Origin: a virus
Reading direction: 5' to 3' (one strand)
Length of the DNA stretch: 45,771 bases
IMG/VR virus record: IMGVR_UViG_3300035183_000132
Location: 1 to 45,771 of that record
Shown: one piece after another, positions 35,395 through 45,771 of the stretch
Position numbering within the stretch: the first letter of the stretch is position 1
How the letters are laid out: the number at the start of each line of letters is the position of its first letter
Notes under the pieces: generated by a model
What the model was told of the DNA's origin: nothing
Database searches by the model: none
The model's input: only the letters and a program-made list of their open reading frames with translations
Made by a program: the position numbers and the translations under genes

Positions 35395-35733
35395 TTAAAG
35401 GTGCTTCTCGATGTACGTTGCAATCTCGTTGAACGTACACTCTTCATCATTCAAGTATTCTATGTGTTGGGCCTCACCAGGTGTTAGACCAGCCCAATCT
35501 AGTACAGCATACGGTGCAGAAACAGTGTATCCTTCATCACCATACACGATATGCAGTACATGTACTCCGTCTTCCTCGAAGACCGGTCTAGCTTGAATGA
35601 CCCCGTGCTCTGCCGCAATATCGCATAGCACACCCATTGCACACCGGGCGTCACCAGTAGCAAGTACGTGGGTTGTTTGACGTATGCCGCTTCTGAGTCT
35701 ACTTATCCACTCCCTCTTAATATCTTGTCTCAT
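35395..35733 (-). CDS. Paralog family copy 1 (112 aa)
   Basis: One of five related small proteins in this genome. Conserved features: N-terminal helix with EWISRLRSGIRQ, then GDARCAMGVLCDIAAEHG with a strictly kept Cys-Ala-x-Gly-Val-Leu, a variable strand region, a Trp-containing WAGLTPGE, and a C-terminal YLNDEECTFNEIATYIE. The same pattern (Leu-Arg-Ser-Gly ... Gly-Val-Leu ... ND ... IA-x-x-Ile-Glu) occurs in many phages without known function. It lies 13 bases from its neighbour. Confidence 0.72.
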   Translation of the reverse strand: MRQDIKREWISRLRSGIRQTTHVLATGDARCAMGVLCDIAAEHGVIQARPVFEEDGVHVLHIVYGDEGYTVSAPYAVLDWAGLTPGEAQHIEYLNDEECTFNEIATYIEKHL

Positions 35734-35744
35734 ATATGTTATCC

Positions 35745-36059
35745 CTATAGGTTATTTTCGATATACGTAGCAATCTCTTCAAACGTACAATCCTCGTCAT
35801 TCAAGCATTCTATGTTACGTAACTCGTCACGTGTGATGCATGCCCATCCTAAGATAGGTGTAGGTGCATCGCATCTATATCCGCCATAGTATGTTCTCTC
35901 CTCGGGTGTAACTACCTTGAAAGTAACACCGTGTTCAACAGCAATATCACAGAGAACACCCACTGCACAACGTGCGTCACCGCGTGCAAGCATACCTTTT
36001 ACCTGTGGTATACCACTTCTCAGCCTCTTGACCCACTCTTGTTTGATATCGTGCCTCAT
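35745..36059 (-). CDS. Paralog family copy 2 (104 aa)
   Basis: Closely similar to the copies on both sides: EWVKRLRSGIPQVKGMLA, GDARCAVGVLCDIAVEHG, WACITRDELRNIECLND and TFEEIATYIENNL. The middle (FKVVTPEERTYYGG) is the divergent part, which would fit a variable target-binding surface. It has its own short leader of 23 bases. Confidence 0.72.
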   Translation of the reverse strand: MRHDIKQEWVKRLRSGIPQVKGMLARGDARCAVGVLCDIAVEHGVTFKVVTPEERTYYGGYRCDAPTPILGWACITRDELRNIECLNDEDCTFEEIATYIENNL

Positions 36060-36082
36060 ATATTCCCCTAGTACTGTCTACA

Positions 36083-36400
36083 TCACAAGTGTTCATCGAT
36101 GAACTTAGCAATAACGGCAAATGAGGCTCCGTCATCGTTCATTTCACCTATCGTTGCAAGGTAATATTGACCAACGTCAGACCAATCATAGACTTCGGGT
36201 GGCACTAAATCCACGTAATTGCCTCCATAGACGACTAAACCGTCTTTTTCTATCCTTCTAGTTGTTATCCCAAGGTCAACCGCTATATCGCAGAGCACGC
36301 CTATGGCGCATCGCGCATCACCTTTGCCGAGCACACGCTTGACCTGTGGGATGCCACTACGTAACCTCGTAATCCACTCTTGTTTAATATCCGCCCGCAT
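36083..36400 (-). CDS. Paralog family copy 3 (105 aa)
   Basis: The start is ATG 36400 with GGGAGG upstream. The conserved core is EWITRLRSGIPQVKRVLG, GDARCAIGVLCDIAVDLG, and SFAVIAKFIDEHL at the end. The centre (RRIEKDGLVVYGGNYVDL) differs from the other copies. Four such genes stand in tandem, all in the same direction and closely spaced. Confidence 0.72.
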   Translation of the reverse strand: MRADIKQEWITRLRSGIPQVKRVLGKGDARCAIGVLCDIAVDLGITTRRIEKDGLVVYGGNYVDLVPPEVYDWSDVGQYYLATIGEMNDDGASFAVIAKFIDEHL

Positions 36401-36412
36401 ACGTCCTCCCAC

Positions 36413-36733
36413 TTACAGGTACTTGTCTATGAACCCGGCAATGGTCTCGAACGAGTCACCACGATCATTCAATGTCTCTACCAATGTGATGTCCTCTTGC
36501 CTAAGATTGGCCCATTGCTGTATATGAAGCGGGATCGCGTGTACACCCTCACCATCATATACCACAGTACCAGACTCAGGCCTAATCTCTTTGGTAGTAA
36601 CTCCTTGCTCCACAGCCACGTCACAGAGTACACCAAGAGCGCAACGAGCATCACCGATCCCCAGCTTACCCCTGATTTGCGGGACACCGCTACGTAACTT
36701 CTCAATCCATGCCTTCTTTACATCATCACGCAT
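36413..36733 (-). CDS. Paralog family copy 4 (106 aa)
   Basis: Related to its neighbours: AWIEKLRSGVPQIRGKLG, GDARCALGVLCDVAVEQG, HIQQWANLRQEDITLVE, and SFETIAGFIDKYL. First copy of the tandem block in the direction of transcription, preceded by a strong hairpin at 36753-36783. Function unknown. Confidence 0.72.
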   Translation of the reverse strand: MRDDVKKAWIEKLRSGVPQIRGKLGIGDARCALGVLCDVAVEQGVTTKEIRPESGTVVYDGEGVHAIPLHIQQWANLRQEDITLVETLNDRGDSFETIAGFIDKYL

Positions 36734-37040: not shown

Positions 37041-37247
37041 CTAGATTGTATTACCTGTAATACTTACCCACAAATCGGCACAATCAATGCACAGGCATCC
37101 ACCTGCTTCGGCAATGTACACAATCCCATATGGGTTCTCGTCGAACGATGCTACTAGATGCCCATATGTAAGACATGATATACATTGCCTTAGTATTGAA
37201 GCAGCCTCCGTACTCTCACCATGCTTCTGTGTATGGGTACGAGTACT
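37041..37247 (-). CDS. -1 frame extension of the amidotransferase (zinc-finger-like tail)
   Basis: On the minus strand this frame is open from inside a run of nine A (37247-37255 region) to TAG at 37041-37043. It encodes 68 residues, including RQCISCLTYGHLVASF and GGCLCIDCADLW: CxxC and CxCxxC, a zinc-ribbon-like pattern. It has no ATG near its beginning, and a TAA stop closes the same frame directly upstream at 37254-37256. It can therefore be expressed only by a -1 frameshift from the amidotransferase, giving about 357 residues, or through an unusual start. A stem-loop (GTACTC with GAGTAC, inner ACCCAT with ATGGT) immediately follows the A run. An assembly error in the A run is the alternative. 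Confidence 0.62.
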   Translation of the reverse strand, partial: STRTHTQKHGESTEAASILRQCISCLTYGHLVASFDENPYGIVYIAEAGGCLCIDCADLWVSITGNTI

Positions 37248-38113
37248 TTTTTTTTAAGCCGCTTCAATAGTTTCTTACCAACTTTGCCCATCACCTCCTT
37301 CTGTTGTGGGAGAACAATAGTACACTTACCATCATCACCAAACACATAGTCTGGTTGGTACGATGGTAGATAGTTTGCTGGCCTCCTGAGATACTCATCA
37401 ATGTTAAACTGTTGTTGCACAACTACAGGACTACCGAAGTTAAAGTCACCTACCTCTACACATGTGTGATTATGTACACGATATAGGTGTCCCTCTCGTG
37501 TATCGACACGTACATGGTCAGTAAATCCAGACAAGTGCAGGGCATCATATAGGCTATATGAACTACTTGACCATACGATACCATATGGTACACTAGTACC
37601 CAGCTGTGCTACTTCTAGGTCACTCATACGTGCTCGACCAAGGTATATGGTATCAGGTTCATCTACCTTTGTGTAGGTGACAGTACCAACACCATGTAGT
37701 TCATCAAGTGGTAGATTGTCAGCAATATGCCTAAATATGTGCTCACTATCTACCTCACAGTCACGTTGGTACTTTGCATTAAGTTCCTTGTGATTACGGA
37801 TGTAACCGTTATGTGCTCCGATGATACCGTTGTACACAAACGGGTGGGCATTACGTTGTGTAATTGCCCCCGTTGTTGCCTTTCTTGTATGTCCAATAAC
37901 ATGATAGTTAATGGAACCGCGTATGTTGCATGTCCGCACGATGGAGCCGACGTTCTTCGTGATGCTCCATTGTGTCAGGGCATCGCGTGATGCGATGCCC
38001 CAGCTTTCATCGCCACGGCTTTCATTACGAATGGCAAGTATAGCTGCTAGTATCTCTATACTCCCATACTTACCAGCGTCTGGTGCTAACTGCCAACCGA
38101 ACAATCCACACAC
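37190..38113 (-). CDS. Class II glutamine amidotransferase (Ntn hydrolase), 307 aa
   Basis: The product starts MCGLFGWQLAP, with Cys2 as the expected nucleophile after methionine removal. Further family motifs are RGDESWGIA, GHTRKATTG (74-82), GAHNGYIRNHKEL (Asn102, Gly103) and DSEHIF (122-127). It releases ammonia from glutamine for an acceptor enzyme. The partner is probably the amidoligase encoded just upstream in the operon. The last residues (KKLLKRLKKKVLVP) contain a run of nine A in the DNA. In the zero frame the protein ends 18 residues later, while the -1 frame continues into a cysteine-rich tail. Family call is strong; the frameshift product is a hypothesis. Confidence 0.87.
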   Translation of the reverse strand: MCGLFGWQLAPDAGKYGSIEILAAILAIRNESRGDESWGIASRDALTQWSITKNVGSIVRTCNIRGSINYHVIGHTRKATTGAITQRNAHPFVYNGIIGAHNGYIRNHKELNAKYQRDCEVDSEHIFRHIADNLPLDELHGVGTVTYTKVDEPDTIYLGRARMSDLEVAQLGTSVPYGIVWSSSSYSLYDALHLSGFTDHVRVDTREGHLYRVHNHTCVEVGDFNFGSPVVVQQQFNIDEYLRRPANYLPSYQPDYVFGDDGKCTIVLPQQKEVMGKVGKKLLKRLKKKVLVPIHRSMVRVRRLLQY

Positions 38114-38125
38114 AGTAGCCTCCCT

Positions 38126-39397
38126 TCAGTAATGGTCATATACCGCACTGGGACTATCGAAGTACCTGATACGTTCGTGAATCCACTCTGCTAAGTCAGG
38201 ACATAGAGACTTAAGCAACCTGATACTCGGTTCATAGATCACACCGTTACTAGACGAATACGGTTGTGTACCAAGCACCGATTCTATACTATCATGCGTA
38301 TGTGTTGCAGCAACATTGGCTAGTCTCTCCAACATTAGACCCCAGTTGATGATATTCTCTGGATAGACCATGCCTTGTGGTATGCGTATCTCCACTGTAC
38401 CGCGATATACCCATGAGTGTAAGTTGATAGAACGATACCGCTTCGTATGCCGCTTTGTCTTACGTACACTCTCTACATCTGACTTTTTGTAGAAACCGTA
38501 TAAGGTTGACAATAGTGCCTGCCTATAGGCAACCTCTTGCTGCCGTTCATTGAACTTGTCCATATATCCACGAACACGGGCAATAGACTGTACATATCGC
38601 CAGCCACATGGTACGCACGTACTGTTAGATCGTCGATCAAACGGTATCATGCAGTACATGGCACCCTCGACATGCGCCAAGATACGCATGAATAACGCAA
38701 GCTTGGTATAGTTGAAATCCCTGCAGTCTACGTGTATGTGGCAACCGGCATCCGGTGTAACATGTGCCTTGGCTACCTTGAGTGCTCCACATATCTCTCG
38801 AATCTGTGTCTCCCAGTACTTACCAGAAGCGGGATGCGTGTTAATCTCAAAGCCACCATACGGTAGACTACCATCATAGACAATGGACCCATTCCATGCC
38901 TTGACTACTTGTTCTACTGTACTCCAACGAGTAGCTATACCGCATACCTCTATCTCAGCTGACAGTAGCCTACGTCCATACTCGTGGTATCGTGCAAGGT
39001 TCACAGTACCTTGAAAGTACTCTGGCTGCTTTTCATCACCAAAGTGTGTACATCCACATGTACGATTCTTACATCGTCCACAGTACTCACACAATGAATT
39101 CATGTGTGTGTGGAAGTACCCACACTCTGGACAAGTATAGCACCTACAGCACCGTACACAAAGATGACATGCTGGACAGTAGGTACTGGTCACGTCATTA
39201 TCTAGTATTAAGTGTCCGCACAATGGACACCGCTCGCATACACAGCACACGTAGCAGTACCCACAGGAACACATATCTCCCTTTGTGTCTACTGCACAAC
39301 CTAGGCACACATGCTCTACCTGTGTGCTGGCAGAGCATATCGCGATACGTGTCTTAGCCTGCCTAGACTTGACAACGACCAACCGTGCTTGCGACAT
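38126..39397 (-). CDS. Amidoligase with 24-cysteine zinc-ribbon N-terminus, 423 aa
   Basis: Residues about 140-400 match the putative amidoligase family (COOH-NH2 ligase, glutamine-synthetase-like fold): LLSAEIEVCG, then DGSLPYGGFEINTHP, DAGCHIHVDCRDF and GTVEIRIPQGMVYPEN followed by INWG. These are the ATP/Mg-binding and catalytic strands. Residues 21-116 hold 24 cysteines in many CxxC pairs, an array of small zinc ribbons that might bind a protein or nucleic-acid target. The start at 39397 has AGAGG upstream. Such enzymes join a carboxyl to an amine. With the adjacent amidotransferase it may amidate or tag a peptide. The target is unknown. Confidence 0.8.
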   Translation of the reverse strand: MSQARLVVVKSRQAKTRIAICSASTQVEHVCLGCAVDTKGDMCSCGYCYVCCVCERCPLCGHLILDNDVTSTYCPACHLCVRCCRCYTCPECGYFHTHMNSLCEYCGRCKNRTCGCTHFGDEKQPEYFQGTVNLARYHEYGRRLLSAEIEVCGIATRWSTVEQVVKAWNGSIVYDGSLPYGGFEINTHPASGKYWETQIREICGALKVAKAHVTPDAGCHIHVDCRDFNYTKLALFMRILAHVEGAMYCMIPFDRRSNSTCVPCGWRYVQSIARVRGYMDKFNERQQEVAYRQALLSTLYGFYKKSDVESVRKTKRHTKRYRSINLHSWVYRGTVEIRIPQGMVYPENIINWGLMLERLANVAATHTHDSIESVLGTQPYSSSNGVIYEPSIRLLKSLCPDLAEWIHERIRYFDSPSAVYDHY

Positions 39398-42308: not shown

Positions 42309-42647
42309 TCACAGGTTTTCTTCGATCCATTGGGCAATCTCGGCGAACGGGATGCCACGATCGTTTGCCGTTGCGATATGACATGCTGCGTTGGAAGGGA
42401 GACAAGCCCACTCGAACACACTATCCGGTAACTCGTATGTGTGTCCGTCATAGGCGTAGTATTGGGTTTCTTTGCCGTTGGTGACCAATGCACGTTTTGT
42501 GCGCCCAGTAACCCCGACGTAGAAGGCTATGTTGGCAAGAACACCTAGGGCGCAATGACCCTCAGATGTATGAAGGAATTGTTTGTTCTGTCGATACTCT
42601 CCGCTCCTTAGTGCCTTGACCCACTCCGCTTTAATCTCCGGTACCAT
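42309..42647 (-). CDS. Paralog family copy 5 (112 aa)
   Basis: The most divergent member of the five-copy family. It keeps EWVKALRSGEYRQNKQFL, HCALGVLANIAFYVG, WACLPSNAACHI and TANDRGIPFAEIAQWIEENL. Unlike the other four it lies apart, 5.5 kb away, and is closer to the pattern seen in other phages (LRSGxYxQ). ATG 42647 follows GGAGGGAG. Function unknown. Confidence 0.72.
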   Translation of the reverse strand: MVPEIKAEWVKALRSGEYRQNKQFLHTSEGHCALGVLANIAFYVGVTGRTKRALVTNGKETQYYAYDGHTYELPDSVFEWACLPSNAACHIATANDRGIPFAEIAQWIEENL

Positions 42648-42672
42648 GGTGCTCCCTCCTTCCGTCTCACGC

Positions 42673-42721
42673 AAAAAGAAAGGCCGATCAGAGTACCTGC
42701 TTGGTACGTCTGATCGGCCTT
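42673..42721 (-). terminator. Rho-independent terminator (minus strand)
   Basis: AAGGCCGATCAGA (42680-42692) and TCTGATCGGCCTT (42709-42721) give a 13-pair stem, with an inner GTACC/GGTAC. On the minus strand it is followed by a T-rich tract. It ends the transcript of the small gene stopping at 42756. Confidence 0.88.
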
Positions 42722-45642: not shown

Positions 45643-45771
45643 AGATCGTAGCCTCGTTGCCGCGCTCAACGAGCTTGGTGAGTCTGTCTCATGGCGCTGG
45701 GACAAGCTCCCCGCGCAAGAACAGTTCCTCACCACCACGACCACCTTCACCTGCTTCTCAGGTGGCTTCGG
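45632..45771 (+). CDS. terL: Terminase large subunit, 5' part (continues at base 1)
   Basis: ATG 45632 starts the terminase; the frame is open through the end of the window and continues at base 1, once the 127-base overlap is removed, into the coding region that ends at 1700. The N-terminus reads MAGRDRSLVAALNELGE, and the Walker A region begins at the very end of the window. No good ribosome site precedes the ATG, so translation is probably coupled to the gene ending at 45642. Confidence 0.9.
   Translation, partial: MAGRDRSLVAALNELGESVSWRWDKLPAQEQFLTTTTTFTCFSGGF
45645..45771. repeat. Terminal direct repeat, copy 2 (circular overlap)
   Basis: Identical to 1-127. It lies inside the terL coding sequence. 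See the first copy for interpretation. Confidence 0.93.

Follow-up and report, generated by a model that had tools for sequence, protein, structure and literature searches.

Class II glutamine amidotransferases of phages very probably share recoding as a family trait, and comparison of their genes points to frameshifting as a means, adopted by phages time and again, of producing the enzyme both with and without a C-terminal tail. In the window, by which we mean the whole 45,771-base virus record analysed here, one gene is probably recoded and would give rise to an amidotransferase (GATase) with and without a tail of four cysteines (C4). Support for recoding is weaker in the window than in the family, because the window lacks a well-spaced stimulator, its nearest relatives are tail-less and the site is known from a single contig.

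The amidotransferase gene and its predicted -1 frame tail

The GATase gene runs on the minus strand from a GTG start at 38113 to a TAA stop (Table 1). Its product begins with MCGLFGW, placing the Cys2 nucleophile right after the start codon, and scores above the Pfam cut-offs for GATase_4 and GATase_6. Near its end the gene reads CTT AAA AAA AAA GTA through a run of nine As, which is the sole homopolymer of at least seven in the 45.8-kb record. The first-pass annotation had proposed that a -1 shift at this run extends the protein into a zinc-finger-like tail, and our recheck of the ORFs and the sequence bears out all of its coordinates for the gene, the run and the tail. The 68 -1 codons up to the TAG are free of stops, a TAA at 37256-37254 shuts this frame just upstream of the run, and ATG, GTG and TTG are all absent before the first CxxC of the tail. 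The gap of 162 nt between the frame-0 stop and the next ATG (37027) is likewise as described. Read in the -1 frame the gene ends 13 nt from that ATG, right before its AAGGAGG, a spacing that matches the one among the other genes of the operon.

Table 1. Features of the amidotransferase region in the window
Feature	Position	Strand	Remarks
Class II glutamine amidotransferase, frame-0 ORF, 307 aa	37190..38113	-	Pfam GATase_4 5e-10, GATase_6 5e-9; phrog_4736 2e-16
A9 slip site, frame-0 heptamer A_AAA_AAA	run 37247..37255; heptamer 37253-37247	-	
Frame-0 extension past the A run, VLVPIHRSMVRVRRLLQY	37190..37246	-	not coding-like by codon usage
C4 zinc-finger-like tail (CISC-x27-CIDC), -1 frame	37041..37246	-	68 codons, then TAG (37043-37041)
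Stem-loop proposed by the first-pass annotation	37210..37246	-	directly abuts the A run
AAGGAGGTGATG, perfect SD-like sequence inside the GATase gene	37289..37300	-	its end lies 33 nt upstream of the A run
Amidoligase_2 gene (COOH-NH2 ligase type)	38126..39397	-	PF12224 8e-16; directly upstream of the GATase gene

A codon-usage score trained on the genes of the same record gives positive values in frame 0 as far as the A run. Beyond the run, positive values occur in the -1 frame and frame 0 is negative, with a mean of -0.23 to -0.37 for the frame-0 extension compared to +0.17 in the tail frame. Over its 68 codons the tail scores 0.10-0.14 per codon, which exceeds the 95th percentile of off-frame windows but lies towards the bottom of the in-frame range. 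An open frame of 68 codons arises by chance in 2.5 % of draws of random sequence with local composition, and such a frame together with the pattern C..C-x15-35-C..C in 0.03 %.

The first-pass annotation had also suggested a database search with the tail. Used alone, the tail gave no match in Pfam, PHROGs or by tblastn, and it matched modestly a profile built from the in-frame tails of homologous genes (E 0.0097). AlphaFold modelled the tail with low confidence (pLDDT 65), and Foldseek gave no significant match, the weak ones being mostly zinc fingers and RING domains. The codon signal, the in-frame tail profile and seven distant homologs whose C4 tail is encoded in the -1 frame at slippery heptamers are the reasons why we regard as well supported the proposal that the tail is part of the amidotransferase and would be reached by a -1 shift.

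The amidoligase encoded directly upstream is likely the partner enzyme of the GATase. Its N-terminus is very rich in cysteine pairs (39043-39340, minus strand), and zinc binding may thus be common to the two enzymes. On the same strand, 35395-36733 and 42309-42674 encode five small paralogs (about 105-120 aa, 34-56 % identical), four of them in tandem; all five match phrog_18067, a family of unknown function. The record carries exact direct terminal repeats of 127 bases (1-127 and 45645-45771) and a terminase gene that spans its ends, and is therefore probably a complete, circular or permuted genome.

Homologs with and without a frame change

Our survey covered 105 homologous loci, drawn from phage records, IMG/VR and a single MAG, and 72 of them have an in-frame C-terminal C4 module of the form CxxC-x(about 20)-CxxC. 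The profile derived from such modules ranked the window tail at the top of 937 six-frame segments, the runner-up having an E-value of 0.35, and all four cysteines of the window tail align to the in-frame tails of the family. The score was reached by 68 of 2000 shuffles of the window tail in which the cysteines were kept fixed (3.4 %); the match beyond the cysteines is thus modest.

Seven distant homologs, five on IMG/VR contigs and two in GenBank phage records, have their C4 tail in the -1 frame, and at every one of these junctions there is a slippery heptamer. The heptamer is C_CCT_TTC in L068 and A_AAA_AAG in the other six (L062, L067, L083, L098, L147 and L158). Each of the IMG/VR loci (L062, L067, L068, L083 and L098) has exactly one frame-0 heptamer within its ORF overlap, and the background frequency of A_AAA_AAR in these genes is 0.09 % of codons. 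The -1 tails of these five loci match the profile with E-values of 1e-11 to 1e-19. The GenBank records are Pseudoalteromonas phage Slicky01 (L147), where frame 0 ends in GCT AAA AAA AAG TAG, and Vibrio phage 275E43-1 (L158), where it ends in TCA AAA AAG TAG TAG TAG after GGAGG; the profile scores of their tails are weak (E 2 and 0.019 respectively).

Elements known to stimulate frameshifting accompany several of these sites. An SD-like element lies upstream in four of them, as AGGAG at 11 nt (L067 and L083) or GGAGG at 13 nt (L062) and 7 nt (L158), and a hairpin 6-8 nt downstream is found in L083 (z -4), L098 (z -3) and, weaker, L062. In the catalytic-domain tree, which omits Vibrio phage 275E43-1, the -1 arrangement requires five changes and is common to two sister pairs, L062 with L067 (support 99) and L083 with L098 (support 92), which argues that it was inherited in these pairs. 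Arrangements that are both inherited and stimulator-bearing are not random sequencing errors.

One further candidate, L108, was dropped. It is 99.3 % identical to L106, and within the GATase region the two are set apart by one-base indels in runs of A7/A8, C4/C5 and G4/G5. One-base run differences therefore do occur in this collection, and homopolymer lengths have to be read with caution.

The homologs with a -1 tail sit in a different clade of the catalytic-domain tree from the window. The first-pass annotation had suggested comparing relatives for a conserved slippery site; a slippery heptamer before a -1 tail is present in the seven distant homologs, whereas the closest relatives of the window, the other eight members of its clade (L003, L026, L029, L037 and L045-L048), are without a comparable tail. 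A search of IMG/VR for near relatives of the GATase, the tail and the amidoligase yielded none that fixes the length of the A run, and phages related to the window by capsid and polymerase had no copy of the GATase gene in the sequence examined.

Among relatives with an in-frame tail, A_AAA_AAG is frequent in the linker that follows the catalytic domain (codons about 225-300), where it makes up 24 of 84 KK pairs compared to 24 of 207 elsewhere (Fisher p 6e-4). Carriers include L021, L023, L055, L056, L058, L059, L063, L070, L077, L125, L126 and others, and some of these sites have an SD-like element 8-13 nt upstream. A -1 shift at such a site would yield a tail-less form.

Proposed slippage at the A9 run and alternative explanations

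We propose that standard decoding of the window gene would produce the 307-residue enzyme, and that the gain of one base at the A9 run, either by RNA polymerase adding an A or by the ribosome slipping back one on A_AAA_AAA, would bring translation into the -1 frame and add the putative zinc-binding tail. The Cys2 enzyme would release ammonia from glutamine for the amidoligase. The tail may bind zinc and serve to dock the GATase on the amidoligase, in which case the balance between docked and free enzyme would depend on slippage.

As in -1 programmed ribosomal frameshifting, the window has a frame-0 X_XXY_YYZ heptamer in the ORF overlap and a long coding-like -1 ORF without a standard start; as in transcriptional slippage, it has an A run of about nine or more at the frame change. 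The stem that the first-pass annotation had noted after the run does exist (-15.9 kcal/mol, z -1.7), but we rejected a stimulatory role for it because of the spacer of 0 nt and the unremarkable energy; once its first six bases are melted, z becomes +0.28. We found no SD-like element 6-17 nt upstream of the run (37254-37270), nor a stem or pseudoknot about 5-9 nt downstream of it. The SD-like AAGGAGGTGATG was also rejected as a stimulator, its 33 nt being too far for any known one; the 11-mer AAGGAGGTGAT has a single occurrence on this strand.

In bacteria, RNA polymerase is reported to slip efficiently on nine As (PMC5009743), and the coding sequence of E. coli contains a single AAA_AAA_AAA (PMC5009743, PMC4256274). 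Because of this literature and the absence of placed stimulators at the A9 run, we favour recoding at the A9 run in which polymerase slippage is no less likely than ribosomal slippage to cause the predicted shift. Polymerase slippage was missing from the explanations listed in the first-pass annotation, and the local anatomy suits it as well as or better than slippage by the ribosome.

The main rival to recoding in the window is a one-base sequence or assembly error, in which case the true run would be A10 and the gene a plain continuous GATase with an in-frame zinc tail. We consider this unlikely. Such an error would sit in the one long homopolymer of the record, where the run is known from one contig with no second sample and where assembly errors are to be expected of a long A run; it would restore the in-frame tail that is usual among relatives. 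Some in-frame relatives have A8-A9 in their Lys-rich linkers, and the one-A difference between L106 and L108 lies at the equivalent place. Against an error stand the seven homologs with -1 tails at slippery heptamers, mostly of six to eight As and with two sister pairs among them, and the lack of any frame disruption elsewhere in the window where relatives align. One apparent frame break that we checked base by base is a neighbouring short gene in another frame, and the remaining ones are record ends or antisense readings.

It is rather improbable that the run carries a true frameshift mutation or is phase-variable, with 9 or 10 As depending on the virion and the tail switched at the DNA level. 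Homopolymers mutate fast and A9 is an outlier for this genome; however, the codons of the tail are still coding-like, so decay is not advanced, and variation between genomes is a matter on which the window offers a single genome only. Highly improbable is a separate small tail gene starting at ATA 37196-37194 or at an internal GTG: although the in-frame ATA lies 8 nt downstream of GGAGG (37209-37205) and the annotation of Vibrio phage 275E43-1 gives the tail an ORF of its own, translation does not normally start at ATA, the GTG comes after the first CxxC, the coding signal in the tail frame starts already at the A run and relatives encode the module within one chain.

Known recoding systems and significance for phage metabolism

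Tail chaperone and capsid genes are the main examples of programmed frameshifting known in tailed phages. There too a -1 shift adds a C-terminal extension; the window gene differs in that its product is an enzyme of metabolism and has no part in virion morphogenesis. Compared to other phage pairs of class II GATase and Amidoligase_2, the window has the same neighbours, the Cys2 start and the C4 C-terminal module common among them, and it departs from most members in that their module is in frame 0.

The E. coli dnaX gene resembles the amidotransferases in having an A-rich heptamer, and it gives two protein forms from one gene as is proposed for them. In the homologs the heptamer is mostly A_AAA_AAG, several of them having an SD on its upstream side at 7-13 nt and some a hairpin on its downstream side at 6-8 nt. 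In contrast, the dnaX shift truncates while the GATase shift would extend, and the window A9 is without placed stimulators. Thermus thermophilus dnaX, which undergoes transcriptional slippage, has a run of nine As before its frame change as the window does. Similarly, in C. rodentium tssM1 slippage on eleven As before the frame change adds the C-terminal domain, with no ribosomal stimulators nearby (PMC4256274). Unlike these two, the window gene is that of a phage enzyme, and slippage in it is predicted from sequence. In the open-access literature we found no report of frameshifting in phage amidotransferases, and amidotransferases are absent from the reviews and surveys of bacterial recoding found there. 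The mechanism is thus already known and its use in phage amidotransferases appears to be new.

We tentatively raise a broader possibility, that frameshifting serves widely as a switch for the C4 tail in phage class II amidotransferases, adding it in the seven homologs and the window and removing it in many in-frame members. What is conserved would then be the ratio of the two forms and not the frame, and the window would be a polymerase-slippage variant. The two GenBank phages with textbook sites make the family case directly testable. Annotation pipelines would cut the zinc module off in such genomes. If frameshifting does recur in an enzyme family, its range would extend to phage metabolism, and the amidoligase pathways of phages, which are poorly understood, might involve a regulated ratio of tailed to tail-less enzyme.
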